Source: Flavobacterium sp. LPB0248 (lineage in GTDB: Bacteria > Bacteroidota > Bacteroidia > Flavobacteriales > Flavobacteriaceae). Taken from it: 64,000 nucleotides of DNA. The stretch is from assembly GCF_013388355.1 (NCBI RefSeq), contig NZ_CP058246.1, forward strand, positions 558,001 to 622,000, given 5' to 3'. A model generated the notes under the pieces. It was not told the origin of the DNA. It did no database searches and saw only the letters and a program-made list of their open reading frames with translations. This document shows positions 41,808-47,489 of this stretch, piece after piece (the first letter of the stretch is position 1; the number at the start of each line of letters is the position of its first letter). The position numbers and the translations under genes were made by a program.

Positions 41808-42554
41808 ATGCCAATATCTCCCAATTTCACATCAGTTTTAAGCAAAGACTGGGAAATCAATTTCACACAATGTACGCCTACAGGTTTTTTAAAATATACC
41901 GATTTGTGCAATATTTTACAATTAACCGCAGCTGCACATTCAGAAGTTGGCGGAATCAGCTTTTATGACATGCAGGAATTTGATCAGGCATGGGTTTTAA
42001 GCCGAATGCGTGTTGAAATTACGGCATTACCAAAATGGCAAGACGTTGTTACCGTAAAAACATGGATTAATAGCTTAGAAAACTCACGTTCTGTTCGTGC
42101 ACTGGAAATGTATGTAAACGGAAAAAAAATAGTAGGTTGCGAAACCTATTGGGCAGTTTTCAATACAAAAGCACGTAGGCCAGAAGCTTTAGCACTGCCT
42201 TTTGAACATTTCGAACTATTCCCAGAAAACAGAGCAACGGAAGAAGGTTTTTCTAAAATAAACATCAATCATGAAAAAGAAGCCGTTTTCGAAAAAACAG
42301 TCTATCTATCCGATTTAGACATTGTAAATCATGTAAATAACGTAAAATATCTGGAATGGTGTTTGGATCATGTTGATCCAAAAAGAATCATGAAACAAGA
42401 AGTTAAAAGCTTCGAAATGAATTTCATGAAAGAACTTTCACTACAAGATAATGTTGTTATTCACGAAAGCGAAGACGACGATCACACAACAGCAACATTC
42501 AGCATTACAAAAGGCGAAAAAACATGTTTTGCTTTGGAATTGCATTGGAAGTAA
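41808..42554 (+). CDS. Acyl-ACP thioesterase
   Basis: The 248-residue double-hotdog protein ends fatty-acid synthesis by cleaving acyl-ACP. Family motifs are LTAAAHSEVGG and VLSRMRVEI in the first repeat, WINSLENSRSVRALEMY, and the second-repeat active site LDIVNHVNNVKYLEWCLD, with the Asn-His pair and a Cys. It follows miaA by 15 bases and is probably in its operon. A convergent terminator follows. Confidence 0.93.
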   Translation: MPISPNFTSVLSKDWEINFTQCTPTGFLKYTDLCNILQLTAAAHSEVGGISFYDMQEFDQAWVLSRMRVEITALPKWQDVVTVKTWINSLENSRSVRALEMYVNGKKIVGCETYWAVFNTKARRPEALALPFEHFELFPENRATEEGFSKININHEKEAVFEKTVYLSDLDIVNHVNNVKYLEWCLDHVDPKRIMKQEVKSFEMNFMKELSLQDNVVIHESEDDDHTTATFSITKGEKTCFALELHWK

Positions 42555-42586
42555 AATTTATTTTAACCACAAGATTTACCACAATA

Positions 42587-42688
42587 TTGTCATTTCGACG
42601 AAGGAGAAATCACACTCGAAACTCTACAAAAATTGGCGATTCTCTTTGTGTAAATACTAGTGCGATTTCTCCTTCGTCGAAATGACAA
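42587..42688. repeat. Inverted repeat of the GTCATTTCGACGAAGG family, copy 1
   Basis: Perfect 25-bp arms (42587-42611, beginning TTGTCATTTCGACGAAGG, and 42664-42688) surround about 50 nt. A second copy lies at 46594-46686. Both sit in the gaps around the rtcB-prfH operon. Confidence 0.88.
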
Positions 42689-42715
42689 ACGAGGTGTTTG
42701 CTTACACTTAAAAAC

Positions 42716-42745
42716 AAAAAAACGATGCAATTTGCATCGTTTTTT
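42716..42745 (-). terminator. Convergent terminator
   Basis: The stem AAACGATGC/GCATCGTTT is extended by A and T runs, with a five-base loop. It lies nine bases beyond the stop of the minus-strand TPR gene and also after the thioesterase gene. Confidence 0.9.
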
Positions 42746-42753
42746 CATCACAA

Positions 42754-43287
42754 TCATTTCGATTTCTTTTTAGAACCTTTCTTTGTTTTTTTCTCTTTCT
42801 TCTTTTTCAGCAAATCAATTTTATTCTTGATTCTCTTCTCAACATCTGTAATATCATATTCATAATTGAATTGCAACAAATGAAGTTTCGCATTTTTAAT
42901 CTCTTTTAATGCCTTCTTAAACTCATTTTGCGCTTCTAAAAGACTAGCTTTCTTGACATAAATCTCCGATTTATTGATTCCTTTTACTGTCAAAGCAAAA
43001 TCAATTAATTTCTGTGCTTCTTCATAATCTTCATTTAAAATCAATGTTTTCAAATAATACGGATATACTTCAAGAGCATGAATATTAATCGCTAAAGCCA
43101 GCTGAAAATAAGACTTTGCTTCTTCATAATTCATTAATTGCTCTGCCTGAATTCTTCCATACAGACATAAAACCATTGTGTTTTTATCATCATAAGAAAA
43201 AGCATAATCCAAAGATTCTATTGTTCCTTCCAACCAAAACGGATAATTATCCAAAGCTTGAAAAAGGTATTTATCAGTTGTTTTCAT
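42754..43287 (-). CDS. TPR-repeat protein with Lys-rich tail, last gene of the rtcB-prfH operon
   Basis: The 177-residue cytoplasmic protein consists of about four tetratricopeptide-like helical pairs (CLYGRIQAEQLMNYEEAKSY, LKTLILNEDYEEAQKLIDFA, VKKASLLEAQNEFKKALKEI). It then ends in a highly basic run of Lys (KKKKEKKTKKGSKKKSK) that could touch RNA or ribosomes. Its start overlaps the end of prfH by 14 bases, which implies co-transcription and coupled translation. No family function is recognised. A role as an adaptor in rescue or repair is an inference from context. Confidence 0.7.
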   Translation of the reverse strand: MKTTDKYLFQALDNYPFWLEGTIESLDYAFSYDDKNTMVLCLYGRIQAEQLMNYEEAKSYFQLALAINIHALEVYPYYLKTLILNEDYEEAQKLIDFALTVKGINKSEIYVKKASLLEAQNEFKKALKEIKNAKLHLLQFNYEYDITDVEKRIKNKIDLLKKKKEKKTKKGSKKKSK

Positions 43288-43963
43288 TTCTTAAATCGTT
43301 TTTTAATTTCTGACGAGTTCCTTTGTAGCTTTTCTCCACTTTACTCTTTTTAAAATCGCTTCCAGTAAAAACTCTAATAGGATTTCCACGCTCTACATTG
43401 AGCTGGTTTTCCCATTGTTTCTCTACGTGATTTTTAAGCTGAACAAGTTTCTCGTCTTCTAATTTTCTTAATAATCTTTCTGTTGCCAGTTTTTTGTTTT
43501 GGTGTTGCGAACGGCTGTCCATTGCTACAACAGCAATTCCTGTCGGAATATGTGTCGCACGAATTGCCGAACTTACTTTATTTACATGCTGACCACCGGC
43601 GCCTGAACTTCGCATCGCCTGATATTGAATGTCATTCTCTGAAACTGATGCATTTTTCTGTGCTTCAATTTCAAAAATTCCAATAAACCAGTTTTTGCGT
43701 TTGTGCATTTTCCTAAACTGACTCTGACCAATCCACTGAATCGTTCCGACCCAAGATTTCACAAACTGGTCGACATTTTTTCCTTTTACAGAAATCGATA
43801 CAGTTTCAATCGTTCCATTTTCTTCTCCCTTTTCTCTTTGGAGTAAAACAACATCTAAATCCTGATCTTGAGCTTCCTCCAAAACTTTTTTAAGTACTTG
43901 GGCAACAACCCAAGTGCATTCTGCAGGTCCGCGACCTGCTGTTATTTGAATTATTCTTTCCAT
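43274..43963 (-). CDS. prfH: Peptide chain release factor H
   Basis: PrfH is a release-factor paralogue without the stop-codon-reading domain 2. The 229 residues carry the catalytic GGQ loop in SSGAGGQHVNKVSSAIRATH and a basic C-terminus (KVEKSYKGTRQKLKNDLR). Published work shows that PrfH releases peptide from ribosomes whose decoding centre has been cut, so that the neighbouring RtcB can rejoin the rRNA. The gene begins 15 bases after rtcB, matching that pairing. The short length and N-terminal WVVAQVLKKVLEEAQ domain distinguish it from RF1, RF2 and ArfB. Confidence 0.9.
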   Translation of the reverse strand: MERIIQITAGRGPAECTWVVAQVLKKVLEEAQDQDLDVVLLQREKGEENGTIETVSISVKGKNVDQFVKSWVGTIQWIGQSQFRKMHKRKNWFIGIFEIEAQKNASVSENDIQYQAMRSSGAGGQHVNKVSSAIRATHIPTGIAVVAMDSRSQHQNKKLATERLLRKLEDEKLVQLKNHVEKQWENQLNVERGNPIRVFTGSDFKKSKVEKSYKGTRQKLKNDLRNENN

Positions 43964-43977
43964 TTTTAAATCTCTTT

Positions 43978-45369
43978 TTAGCGATCCATTCTAACGATCT
44001 TTGGCGTGAAAGTTCCTAAGACTTCAACAAGCTCAGTTTGGTTTGCCATTACTTTTGTAATGTCTTTATATGCCATTGGTGCTTCATCAATATTTCCTCC
44101 AATCAAGGTTACATCATTTGCTTTCAAAACCTTTTTAATTTCACTTTGTGTAAATGTACTTTTACATTTCGCTCTTGAAAACAAACGTCCCGCACCATGC
44201 GAAGCAGAATTCAAACTTTCAGAATTTCCTTTTCCTTTCACAATAAAACCATGAGCAGTCATTGAGCCAGGAATAATTCCTAATTGTCCCTCTCCCGCTG
44301 GCGTCGCTCCTTTTCTATGTACAATACATTCCTGACCGTTTACGATTTCTTTCCAAGCAAAATTGTGGTGATTTTCAATCGTTACTACCACTCTTTTTCC
44401 AATCGCTTTGGCAACTCTTCTGTGAATATCATCATGGCAAGCTTTTGCATATTCTCCGGCTAAATTCATTGCCAGCCAATATTCCTGACCGTCATGCGTA
44501 TTTAAATCTAACCAAGCCAAATGCTGCACATTTTTTGGCAACGGACATTGTTTTGTTGCCAAATAAGTATAATGTTTCGCAATATTTGCACCTAATCCGC
44601 GAGAGCCACTGTGCGACAAAACGGCAAAATATTCGCCTTTTTCCAATTTCCATTCGTTCTCTGGATTCTCAATTTTAGCAATTCCAAATTCCACAAAATG
44701 GTTTCCTCCGCCTGAAGTTCCTAATTGTTTATAGGCTTTTGGCAAAAGATTTTTCAACAATGGAATATCTTGAAATCCACTATTGTAAAATACCTCATGA
44801 TCTACTCTAGAAGTATGAGTTTCATACATTCCAAACTTTGTATTGTCTTTTAAAATCGCTTCCAATTGATGTTCTTTTCCTTTAAAATGAGAAGCTGGCA
44901 AATCAAAAATCGAAAGACTCATTCGGCATCCAATGTCAACACCAACTCCATAAGGAATCACAGCGTTATCAGTCGCCAAAACTCCCCCAATTGGCAATCC
45001 GTAACCTGAATGTGCATCTGGCATTAAAGCTCCTGCAACAGAAATTGGCAGTTTCAATGAATCATACAATTGAAATTTTGCCTGTTCATCTATTTCATTT
45101 TCTCCAAAAATTTTAAAAGGTGCTCTTGTATTTTTAAGCTGATGCATTCTTACCTGAACTGGTTTAATTAAGCCTTCTGCTACTTTCCCCCAAGTTCCGT
45201 TTCCTTCATATTTTTCAGGATGCAATAAAACGTCTTTTGCTTCTGTTAGAATAGATTCTTTTTTTTCTCTTTTTCTATATCTATTTATCTGCCCTAAGGC
45301 AATGTTTATTGAATTGTTCTTTGGAAAACCTAATTTAATTAGGTCTTTTCCAGATAATTTATTTCCCAT
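43978..45369 (-). CDS. rtcB: RNA ligase RtcB (RtcB2-like, PrfH-associated)
   Basis: RtcB joins RNA 3'-phosphate or cyclic-phosphate ends to 5'-OH ends using GTP and Mn2+. The 463-residue protein shows the metal-binding motifs YGVGVDIGCRMSLS and HSGSRGLG, ENHHNFAWKE, and the SASHGAGRLFSR motif with the His that carries GMP. It begins four bases after the basic unknown protein and is followed by prfH. Its probable target is ribosomal RNA broken by an endonuclease, as described for the RtcB-PrfH pair. No archease gene is present in the window. Confidence 0.95.
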   Translation of the reverse strand: MGNKLSGKDLIKLGFPKNNSINIALGQINRYRKREKKESILTEAKDVLLHPEKYEGNGTWGKVAEGLIKPVQVRMHQLKNTRAPFKIFGENEIDEQAKFQLYDSLKLPISVAGALMPDAHSGYGLPIGGVLATDNAVIPYGVGVDIGCRMSLSIFDLPASHFKGKEHQLEAILKDNTKFGMYETHTSRVDHEVFYNSGFQDIPLLKNLLPKAYKQLGTSGGGNHFVEFGIAKIENPENEWKLEKGEYFAVLSHSGSRGLGANIAKHYTYLATKQCPLPKNVQHLAWLDLNTHDGQEYWLAMNLAGEYAKACHDDIHRRVAKAIGKRVVVTIENHHNFAWKEIVNGQECIVHRKGATPAGEGQLGIIPGSMTAHGFIVKGKGNSESLNSASHGAGRLFSRAKCKSTFTQSEIKKVLKANDVTLIGGNIDEAPMAYKDITKVMANQTELVEVLGTFTPKIVRMDR

Positions 45370-45372
45370 GAT

Positions 45373-46119
45373 TTATATCATTTCATCTATATATTGCTGA
45401 TACAATACATTTAGACTTTTATTTTTAATTGGACTTATCTCTTTTGGGTTTTCCTTTTCATAGTAACTCCATTTACGAGAACTGCCATGTATTAATCTGT
45501 TTGTTTTACCTCTAAGATTATGATTAACAATATAATTTTCAATCACTTGAATTTCACTTTCTAAATCCGAATCAACCATTTTTGTATGTGTTATCATATA
45601 AGGGCTAACACGAAGCACATATCGCCACGGCTCATTAAATACATAATGAATTTTGTATCGTTTACAATTGCCACACCAGCGCTCTCTTTTATAAAAATGT
45701 GCTTTTTCTTTTTCAGTTAATTCTAGTTTTGAACTTTTCCATTCCCACTCTGAAAACTCTTTTACAGTTTGGAATTTCTCCACATAAACGTGTTTTCTTT
45801 TCCTTTTTTTCTTTCTCTCAAAAGATTTTTCTGGAGAAAACTGCCATGTATTTATTTTTTCCAATAATTCCTTGTAGAATGAAGCTTCACTTGATCTGGC
45901 AATGTCATCTCTTAATTTAAAGTTGCGTTGCCAACCTTTTTGATACGGAACTTCTAAAGAAACTAATGGTAAGTCTTTACGTTTTCTCCAAAGTTCAACT
46001 TCAAGTTTTCTTAACTGAATTAAATGCTTTTCAAAATCTTCTTTTACTAATCTTTTTTTTCTTCTTTTGCTTTTAAAACGAGTACACAAAGCATACTCAT
46101 CTACAGCATAATTTTCCAT
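45373..46119 (-). CDS. Unrecognised very basic protein, first gene of the rtcB-prfH operon
   Basis: This 248-residue protein is rich in Lys, Arg and aromatic residues (RFKSKRRKKRLVKEDFEKHL, ERKKKRKRKHVYVEKF). It includes one CxxC (WCGNCKRYKIHYVFNEPWRY), WEWKSS, and a helical Glu/Lys segment (EVELWRKRKDLPLVSLEV). There is no signal peptide. I recognise no family. It ends three bases before the rtcB start, so the two genes are one transcript. The charge pattern is that of an RNA- or ribosome-binding protein; a role in targeting or sensing damaged ribosomes is a guess from context. Confidence 0.7.
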   Translation of the reverse strand: MENYAVDEYALCTRFKSKRRKKRLVKEDFEKHLIQLRKLEVELWRKRKDLPLVSLEVPYQKGWQRNFKLRDDIARSSEASFYKELLEKINTWQFSPEKSFERKKKRKRKHVYVEKFQTVKEFSEWEWKSSKLELTEKEKAHFYKRERWCGNCKRYKIHYVFNEPWRYVLRVSPYMITHTKMVDSDLESEIQVIENYIVNHNLRGKTNRLIHGSSRKWSYYEKENPKEISPIKNKSLNVLYQQYIDEMI

Positions 46120-46144
46120 AAAAATTTATTATGCATTAAATTAA

Positions 46145-46182
46145 TAGCCAAACTTGGCTAACCATCTTATCCAAAAGGATAA
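46145..46182 (-). promoter_or_regulatory. Two tandem hairpins in the rtcB operon leader
   Basis: TAGCCAA-AC-TTGGCTA (46145-46160) and TTATCC-AAAA-GGATAA (46167-46182) are two perfect hairpins only six bases apart and 26-63 nt before the basic-protein start codon. They have no T run. They could be RNA stability elements, an RNA-binding protein site, or dyad operators. Confidence 0.45.
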
Positions 46183-46226
46183 ATTTAAAATCGTTTTTTC
46201 GGGAAAATTTTGAAGTGTCTAGAATA

Positions 46227-46262
46227 AAAAAAGCCCGAAACTTATTGTCTTCGGGCTTTTTT
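46227..46262 (-). terminator. Intrinsic terminator between the small ORF and the rtcB operon
   Basis: A 13-bp stem (AAAAAAGCCCGAA with TTCGGGCTTTTTT) and a ten-base loop. In the minus direction it follows a 27-residue ORF by 20 bases and precedes the first operon gene by about 107 bases. It can end a short transcript or act as an attenuator. Confidence 0.8.
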
Positions 46263-46282
46263 ATATATCTAAAAATGTATTT

Positions 46283-46366
46283 CTAAGATTGAAATAAGCC
46301 ACGAAGAATCACTTCACCAAATCTATTTGGAGTGAAGCTCTGAGATGTCGATGTAAGTACAAACAT
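46283..46366 (-). CDS. Possible 27-residue small ORF or leader peptide
   Basis: An ATG at 46366 opens a 27-residue frame (MFVLTSTSQSFTPNR, then FGEVILRGLFQS) ending TAG at 46283. Codon use resembles real genes, with no rare-codon runs. It is the only reading frame between the response regulator terminator and the rtcB operon and sits directly before a terminator, a layout typical of leader peptides. No Flavobacterium promoter consensus is seen upstream. Expression is uncertain. Confidence 0.35.
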   Translation of the reverse strand: MFVLTSTSQSFTPNRFGEVILRGLFQS

Positions 46367-46593
46367 TTTTTCTTCGTTTTAAAGGGTTATTATTTTTTTC
46401 GTCTGCAAATATTCAGAATTGTTTTTTGATTTTCCAAATTATTTTAAAGAAAATTCTTTAAAATAATTAAACCATATATTTTAAGCCCTTAACAAAACAT
46501 ATTATCTACCTGATAACTAAAGATCTAAATTAACTTTAATTAGAAAAAATATAACAAGATAAATTTTCAAATTATAACATTTTTTCAAGCTAT
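46367..46593. other. AT-rich region upstream of the small ORF
   Basis: No reading frame and no exact TTTG-N-TAnnTTTG promoter is visible on the minus strand. Near matches (TATAATTTG, TAATTTGG) have the wrong spacing inside the box. AT-only imperfect palindromes such as TTTAAAGAAAATTCTTTAAA occur near 46440-46460. Confidence 0.3.
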
Positions 46594-46686
46594 TTGTCAT
46601 TTTGGACGAAGGAGAAATCTCCGCATCGAATTTCACCAATCTTTACCGAGTTACTCGCGAAGATTTCTCCTTCGTCGAAATGACAA
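46594..46686. repeat. Inverted repeat of the GTCATTTCGACGAAGG family, copy 2
   Basis: Arms of 26-27 nt (46594-46620 and 46661-46686) match those of the copy at 42587-42688, except for a local TTGG/TCG difference in the left arm. The central 40 nt differs from the other copy. Confidence 0.88.
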
Positions 46687-46728
46687 GATTATGTCAAATT
46701 GCGATTAAATAATTTTTACGCATAAAAA

Positions 46729-46750
46729 AAGCCCTGATTTCTCAGGGCTT
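46729..46750 (-). terminator. Terminator of the RprY-like gene
   Basis: The stem AAGCCCTGA/TCAGGGCTT and a four-base loop are followed by seven T on the minus strand. It lies 22 nt past the stop codon. Confidence 0.9.
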
Positions 46751-46772
46751 ATATTTTTTTAGTGAATTTCAA

Positions 46773-47489
46773 TTATTCAGAAACTTTGCTTTTTACAACT
46801 AATCTGAAACCTTCACCGTGAATGTTCAAGATTTCAACATCTTCATCAGCTTTTAGGTATTTTCTCAATTTAGCGATGTAAACGTCCATACTTCTTGATG
46901 TGAAGTAGTTGTCATCTCTCCAAATTTTAGTTAACGCTAATTCTCTCGGCATTAAATCATTTTCATGAAGAATTAACATTTTAAGCAATTCATTCTCTTT
47001 TGGAGATAATTTAATCGGTTCCTCATCTTGGAAAGTAAGGAATCTCAATTTTGAATTTAAGTGGAATTTACCAATATTAAACTCAAACTGTACTTGTTCT
47101 GCTTTTGTATCTGCTGATTTTCTTTGAATGATTGCTTTAATTTTCATTAAAAGAACTTCAGAATCAAAAGGTTTATTTAAATAGTCATCAGCACCAGCTT
47201 TGTAACCTTTTAACACATCTTCTTTCATAGATTTTGCTGTTAAAAAGATAATTGGCACTTCACTGTTCTTCTCTCTAATTTCTTTGGCCAAAGTGTAACC
47301 ATCTTTATAAGGCATCATTACATCAAGAATACATAAATCATATACATCTTTCTTGAATTTCTCGAAACCTTCCATACCGTTTTTAGCTAAAGTAACTTCA
47401 AAGTCATTTAACATTAGATAATCTTTAAGAACCGCCCCAAAATTTAGGTCATCTTCTACTAAAAGTATTCTTTTGTTAGTATTTTCCAT
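46773..47489 (-). CDS. OmpR-type response regulator (RprY-like)
   Basis: The 238-residue protein has a receiver domain (1-120) with acidic pocket (EDD), phospho-acceptor Asp near 54 in LCILDVMMPYKDG, conserved Thr in FLTAKS, and Lys in YLNKPFD. A winged-helix effector domain of the OmpR/PhoB type follows (130-236: LSPKENELLKMLILHENDL, SMDVYIAKLRKYLKAD, IHGEGFRLV). It begins three bases after the sensor kinase stop, so the pair is co-transcribed. In the better-studied Bacteroides genus the homologue is RprY. Confidence 0.94.
   Translation of the reverse strand: MENTNKRILLVEDDLNFGAVLKDYLMLNDFEVTLAKNGMEGFEKFKKDVYDLCILDVMMPYKDGYTLAKEIREKNSEVPIIFLTAKSMKEDVLKGYKAGADDYLNKPFDSEVLLMKIKAIIQRKSADTKAEQVQFEFNIGKFHLNSKLRFLTFQDEEPIKLSPKENELLKMLILHENDLMPRELALTKIWRDDNYFTSRSMDVYIAKLRKYLKADEDVEILNIHGEGFRLVVKSKVSE

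Follow-up and report, generated by a model that had tools for sequence, protein, structure and literature searches.

Of the systems described so far, the closest to the one reported here is the PA5471.1-armZ-prfH operon of Pseudomonas aeruginosa. According to the passages cited, full translation of its leader favors a terminator, while stalling in the leader or its loss leads to expression, and deleting PA5471.1 or placing an early stop codon in it raises ArmZ (PMC12057347, PMC3516279, PMC13041342); one review, in its passage on the subject, deems further proof of PA5471.1 attenuation necessary. Leader-peptide attenuation has also been reported for amino-acid operons of Flavobacterium psychrophilum, in a text in which rtcB and prfH do not appear. 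Burroughs and Aravind (2019), in the passages cited, name four kinds of accessory of RFH-RtcB systems: TPR proteins, Pol-beta nucleotidyltransferases, basic-tailed zinc-ribbon proteins, and proteins that lack homologs and are made of highly charged helices (PMC6514570). Here we describe an rtcB-prfH operon in a window of 64,000 nucleotides (nt) from Flavobacterium sp. LPB0248 (contig NZ_CP058246.1, positions 558,001 to 622,000; positions below are those of the window). The gene order is BASIC-rtcB-prfH-TPR, BASIC being our name for a strongly basic protein, and we read the locus as a rescue-and-repair operon with modular accessory genes that is probably transcribed through a leader-peptide attenuator. 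The leader lies ~0.25 kb upstream of the operon and, like its terminator, was overlooked in an earlier note on this DNA, which dealt with the four genes.

A conserved leader and terminator upstream of the operon

The upstream elements are the following.

46283-46366, minus strand: leader open reading frame (ORF), 27 codons plus stop, MFVLTSTSQSFTPNRFGEVILRGLFQS, with similar ORFs found in related loci by tblastn and a covariance model
46315-46332, minus strand: P1 hairpin within the leader codons, 87.9% of cells paired
46296-46306, minus strand: predicted antiterminator arm at the L-R-G-L codons (CUUCGUGGCUU), able to pair with the 5′ arm of the terminator
46225-46261, minus strand: intrinsic terminator between the leader and the first gene, -19.8 kcal/mol, z -5.6

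Conservation was followed in 398 same-genus genomes, taken to be Flavobacterium (with a subset of 150 for some counts), with PrfH counted at E<=1e-30. The 132 same-genus rtcB loci examined comprise 131 with prfH and L059 (labels L### and G### are our own numbering of relatives' loci and genomes). A tblastn search with the leader peptide found a similar ORF upstream of 127/132 of these loci; the weakest matches have E >1 alone, though a terminator stands at the same distance in 125/127. In the two leaders for which no terminator was found the rtcB start had been called too early, and both were recovered by the covariance model. All 125 measured leaders keep a start codon (ATG in 123, GTG in 2) and an in-frame stop, their length is 26-28 codons, and the terminator starts 16-25 nt past the leader stop. 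The covariance model, R1, matches 131/132 rtcB loci (66/67 and 65/65) at >=67.8 bits, 60 of which built the model and 71 of which did not, and its sole miss, L040, ends at a contig edge with no upstream sequence.

The element is also specific to this operon. R1 matches of >=80 bits in the 150 genomes number 44, one per genome, and belong to all 42 genomes with prfH and to two, G075 and G081, that keep the same rtcB type with no prfH. At E<=0.001 some R1 match occurs in 93/150 genomes, the weaker ones (<=54 bits), which were not individually inspected, looking like ordinary terminators. In a background control, a leader ORF with a strong terminator 14-30 nt after it occurred at 122/128 operons versus 5/198 other genes, and with pairing required as well the counts were 110/128 versus 2/198.

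Two side observations concern matches away from the operon. The next-best R1 match, at 61.7 bits, precedes a TPR gene that stands alone in G130 (L262:4112-4228), an arrangement that a deletion of rtcB and prfH from between the two would give. The two background positives are one family, a 430-residue gene in L115 and L119 with the same layout of leader, terminator and pairing, which we take to resemble a methionine-biosynthesis enzyme.

The L-R-G-L codons, near the end of the leader, can pair with the 5′ arm of the terminator. When the terminator 3′ arm is left out, the fold of lowest energy is the antiterminator (-27.0 kcal/mol, z -3.2), and when the full transcript is present the terminator fold wins over it. 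The duplex between leader and terminator has a mean of -13.0 kcal/mol, compared with -7.7 kcal/mol for codon-shuffled leaders, and in 87/114 distinct cases at most one of 50 shuffles was as good. In P1, four of seven pairs change on both sides and the covariation score is 0.146, against <=0.052 for slid versions, which, the sequences being related, is support rather than proof. The antiterminator arm ends 10 nt before the leader stop, a geometry suggesting that a ribosome that has reached the stop codon would mask the arm but not the terminator. Three features make this element a candidate attenuator: a conserved short ORF, an intrinsic terminator before the first gene, and an antiterminator that overlaps the ORF and excludes the terminator, its pairing being weak in L126 and L155-L158. 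An Rfam scan of 42500-46900 returned no family at gathering score, only weak leader-type and microRNA-type matches, and did not list Flavo-1 at E<=1; a literature search, mostly without reach into subscription papers, found no earlier account of the leader in Bacteroidota.

Outside the genus, 17 prfH loci were compared, among which L307 had no valid pairing score. The same layout with unrelated peptides is present in L306, L310, L313, L314, L315 and L316, where 0-3 of 200 shuffles pair as well, and it is weak in L312 (7/200 shuffles) and L308 (9/200).

Other upstream regions gave observations of their own. In a second operon type (PcfJ-like protein, RtcB and TPR, with no prfH; L256-L260), leader-like ORFs and putative terminators stand upstream; the pair is doubled in tandem in L257, L258 and L260, and rtcB is broken in L260. 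A Ro/TROVE identity for the gene before this second RtcB type was discarded, the protein of L256, the one checked, being PcfJ-like. Read from the sequence, the gaps upstream of rtcB-prfH in E. coli, Proteus and Aureibacter hold a short ORF served by a strong ribosome site of AAGGAGG type, and these ORFs overlap or precede inverted repeats (L317:3163-3470, L318:1170-1360, L320:900-1420 and L319:1642-2055); the E. coli upstream stretch is kept at >=80% coverage in 5338/5426 genomes.

The operon and its accessory genes

The operon itself consists of four genes.

45373-46119, minus strand: BASIC, basic protein of 248 residues, optional accessory gene
43978-45369, minus strand: rtcB, RNA ligase family, 463 residues
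43274-43963, minus strand: prfH, peptide chain release factor H, 229 residues
42754-43287, minus strand: TPR protein of 177 residues with a Lys-rich tail

This arrangement of four minus-strand ORFs across 42754-46119, with gaps of 3 and 14 nt and one 14-nt overlap, had been given in the earlier note and was confirmed, as were its identities for rtcB and prfH. PrfH passes the NCBIfam equivalog cut-off of TIGR03072 (238.2 versus 166.65 bits), its translation carries GAGGQ, and the closest solved chain is 9mor_A, itself a PrfH (E 6e-78). RtcB passes Pfam PF01139 (281.3 versus 27 bits) and, aligned to solved RtcB structures, has HRKGAT and the conserved Cys, and it falls below the cut-offs of the E. 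coli RtcB2 subfamily (TIGR03073, 138.4 versus 271.8 bits; PRK09588, 173.2 versus 407 bits). An RtcB-family gene adjoins prfH in 131/131 same-genus prfH loci. Judged by its genes, a PrfH equivalog with GGQ next to an RtcB-family ligase, the locus is a PrfH-RtcB rescue-and-repair operon, and rtcB-prfH sits in several chromosomal contexts across the 132 loci.

The association of BASIC with prfH-rtcB is real and specific. BASIC has a match in 52/398 same-genus genomes and PrfH in 131/398, and the two co-occur in 51, where ~17 would be expected if they were independent (52x131/398). The sole BASIC genome of the genus without prfH is G075, in which BASIC adjoins rtcB and neither prfH nor TPR is present (L059), and wherever BASIC occurs in the 132 loci it stands directly before rtcB, its stop codon 3 nt before that gene and in frame in the LPB0248 operon. 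RtcB of any type is found in 62/150 genomes, 42 of which have prfH, and BASIC was present in 16/42 genomes with RtcB and prfH, 1/20 with RtcB but no prfH and 0/88 without RtcB. A wider contig scan gave 73 BASIC loci, with an RtcB match in 67 and a PrfH match in 63; RtcB without PrfH accompanies BASIC in L059/L193 and L224, and L228 has neither nearby, its BASIC lying at a contig end. PrfH was over its cut-off in 0/9 checked genomes whose BASIC sits away from rtcB and prfH, and in three Pedobacter genomes with an orphan BASIC, RtcB is elsewhere in the genome. Outside the genus, 8/17 prfH loci carry a BASIC-like gene (L301, L304, L305, L306, L307, L310, L311 and L312), four of them with scores of just 34-52 bits. 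This gene stands directly before prfH in L301 and L304, which are of one genus, and RtcB is elsewhere in the genome. Separately, in L235 (Roseibacillus), a distant BASIC relative (22% identical), an HNH protein, an SPFH protein and RtcB are encoded in a row, the BASIC relative lying two genes before this other RtcB.

BASIC, described earlier as a very basic protein of 248 residues, does have 56 K+R versus 36 D+E, and the mean net charge of 48 members is +21. The further argument that its single CxxC fits an RNA-binding role fails, as does the motif as a sign of zinc binding: it is present in this sequence and is not conserved among BASIC relatives. BASIC had no match in Pfam or NCBIfam at E<=1, nor in PADLOC or PHROGs at E<=0.01, and a phage origin was set aside after one scan of viral contigs confirmed no relative. 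The predicted structure has a mean predicted local distance difference test (pLDDT) score of 83.4 and a predicted template modeling (pTM) score of 0.59; as a whole protein it had no match to the PDB by Foldseek at E<=0.001, the best Z with VIA-align 2 was 5.0, and the best E of the BASIC profile against sequences of solved structures was 0.18, which is not meaningful. Median pairwise ratios of nonsynonymous to synonymous change (dN/dS) are 0.18 for BASIC, 0.10 for TPR, 0.08 for PrfH and 0.03 for RtcB, so BASIC is under selection, yet evolves faster than the core. Distances of BASIC and RtcB correlate with r 0.76, a value that shared ancestry alone could yield. Relatives at 84-90% identity are in Flavobacterium species; the gene is split in two pieces in L064, L080 (L218), L082 and L231. 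In L163, BASIC and RtcB form one natural in-frame ORF through a changed stop codon, a fusion seen in one genome and a possible assembly error.

Across the 131 prfH loci the accessory genes are TPR (120), BASIC (51), a zinc-ribbon-like protein (32), which is encoded between rtcB and prfH, and a nucleotidyltransferase-like protein (5), the last two with weak Pfam support; examples between rtcB and prfH are the Cys-rich zinc-ribbon-like L034:2979-3584 and the nucleotidyltransferase-like L076:7436-7981. The 177-residue protein has TPR matches in Pfam that are all below cut-off. TPR occurs in 46/150 genomes, in 39 with prfH, in 5 following the second RtcB type, which comes with no prfH, and in L262, where the leader element is present and no RtcB stands beside it, and L263, a broken copy. 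All four kinds of accessory listed in 2019 are present among the loci examined here, so the flanking genes, earlier called unrecognized, were already in print: by its weak TPR matches and its linkage, the TPR protein is class 1 of the cited list, and BASIC, matched by description alone, is likely its class 4, the charged and homolog-less protein (PMC6514570).

Beyond the operon, the response-regulator gene upstream has a terminator of its own (46729-46750), and a long inverted repeat lies downstream of the TPR gene (42580-42691), with sub-threshold matches to plant microRNAs in Rfam.

Proposed switch and alternatives

The results above establish the genes, their linkage, and the conservation, specificity and complementarity of the upstream elements; from here on we infer translation of the leader, control of readthrough and the signal that is sensed. 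Transcription would start upstream of the leader. A healthy ribosome would translate the 27-codon leader to its stop, cover the L-R-G-L codons and hide the antiterminator arm, and with the arm hidden the terminator would form and the operon would be off. If ribosomes failed to start or stalled early, for example after rRNA cleavage or under an antibiotic block, the arm would be free to pair with the terminator 5′ arm, and RNA polymerase would read into BASIC-rtcB-prfH-TPR. PrfH would then release peptides from cut ribosomes and RtcB would rejoin the rRNA, activities known for the E. coli proteins. Of the two accessory proteins, BASIC would most likely be an RNA-binding partner that assists in positioning RtcB or PrfH at damaged RNA, and TPR may be a scaffold used with RtcB, both of them tentative views that we rate below even odds. 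If our reading is true, an operon switched on by non-translation of its leader would be a simple answer to how cells sense cut ribosomes, and so to when they produce PrfH and RtcB.

Several observations weigh against this reading. In 27/114 cases at least two of 50 shuffles paired as well as the real leader, and shuffles equal the real pairing in L155-L158 (12-29/50) and L126 (19/50). The antiterminator helix has 96.2% of its cells paired and 6/10 pairs never vary, so covariation is no test of a helix that is nearly invariant, and RNA and peptide constraints in the arm are inseparable. Amino-acid constraint on leader codons 2-9 is only weak, single-base codon differences there being synonymous in 3773 cases and nonsynonymous in 6519, with a diversity by codon position of 0.239, 0.264 and 0.306. 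Outside the genus only 6/17 prfH loci show the layout clearly and 2 weakly, and R1 matches at E<0.001 in only 3/17. As to the accessory genes, BASIC is absent from 80/131 prfH loci, it occurs apart from both rtcB and prfH in three Pedobacter genomes, Foetidibacter and a metagenome-assembled genome of Cardiobacteriaceae, and a BASIC-RtcB fused model (pTM 0.54, uninformative) gives docking no support.

The alternative that survives best is that of the earlier note, in which both flanking genes would encode components devoted to the repair machine, for example in rRNA-end recognition or ribosome docking. Tight linkage, spacing of 3 nt or an overlap with rtcB, the one natural fusion, purifying selection and strong positive charge speak for it, and the linkage part of the proposal stands. 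Its novelty does not, the general form having been proposed already in the cited 2019 passages (PMC6514570), and BASIC is optional, broken in the four loci named above and apart from rtcB-prfH in several genomes, while TPR also accompanies the second RtcB type without prfH; we regard such dedicated roles as possible, leaning against them. Half of the earlier inference holds, most of it had appeared in print before, and the proposed switch before the operon is the stronger result.

Less probable is that the short ORF is incidental and that the conserved upstream RNA, rather than being a translated leader, works as a terminated small RNA or, with a protein or ligand bound to it, in the manner of a riboswitch. 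In its favor are the conservation of P1 and the antiterminator arm at the RNA level, the weak constraint on the peptide elsewhere in the leader, and the reading of a similar RNA stretch in two frames in L306/L310 and L314/L316. Against it stand the start and in-frame stop kept in 125/125 leaders at 26, 27 or 28 codons, the stop-terminator distance held at 16-25 nt, as ribosome occlusion needs, the lack of an Rfam family at gathering score, and the use of a leader peptide at the same operon in the cited accounts of P. aeruginosa, and we consider this explanation unlikely. Slightly less likely again, that BASIC is hitchhiking cargo travelling in front of rtcB would fit its patchy presence and the orphan Pedobacter copies, but BASIC stays beside rtcB or prfH across several chromosomal contexts and families, directly precedes, in two genomes of the same genus, a prfH that has no rtcB beside it, and has a dN/dS of 0.18.

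Comparison with known systems

The E. coli RtcB2-PrfH system, as described in the passages cited, likewise has both genes in one operon, and it protects against 16S rRNA cleavage by colicin E3 (PMC9223846); the RtcB of LPB0248 is of a longer type than E. coli RtcB2 and misses the TIGR03073 and PRK09588 cut-offs. The cited passages of Burroughs and Aravind mention no leader or attenuator (PMC6514570), and our linkage survey adds which accessory genes go with the operon and that they are optional. The hflXr attenuator of Listeria monocytogenes, according to the passages cited, resembles ours in its small ORF, its mutually exclusive terminator and antiterminator, and its control of a ribosome-rescue-type factor (PMC6310831). 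Its ORF, which carries an RLR motif, has 14 codons and not 26-28 as here, the ribosome involved is one stalled by an antibiotic, and loss of the start codon prevents hflXr induction (PMC6310831), whereas here it is predicted to switch the operon on.

The PA5471.1-armZ-prfH operon, as far as the cited passages describe it, is the most similar: prfH comes after an RtcB-like gene, and ~250 bp upstream lies a short leader peptide, with terminators between. PA5471.1 has 13 codons versus 26-28 here and is a different leader from a different phylum, compared by description alone, and ArmZ has been studied in those accounts as an efflux-pump anti-repressor. It is nearly as plausible as not that RtcB repair operons in general sense damage through leader-peptide attenuation, with the ribosome itself as the sensor. 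One logic would then serve rtcB-prfH in both Bacteroidota and Pseudomonadota as well as the operons of the second RtcB type, the control of armZ in P. aeruginosa being one case of it rather than a peculiarity of an efflux pump. If this is true, the induction of ArmZ in P. aeruginosa would be explained as an old property of repair operons.

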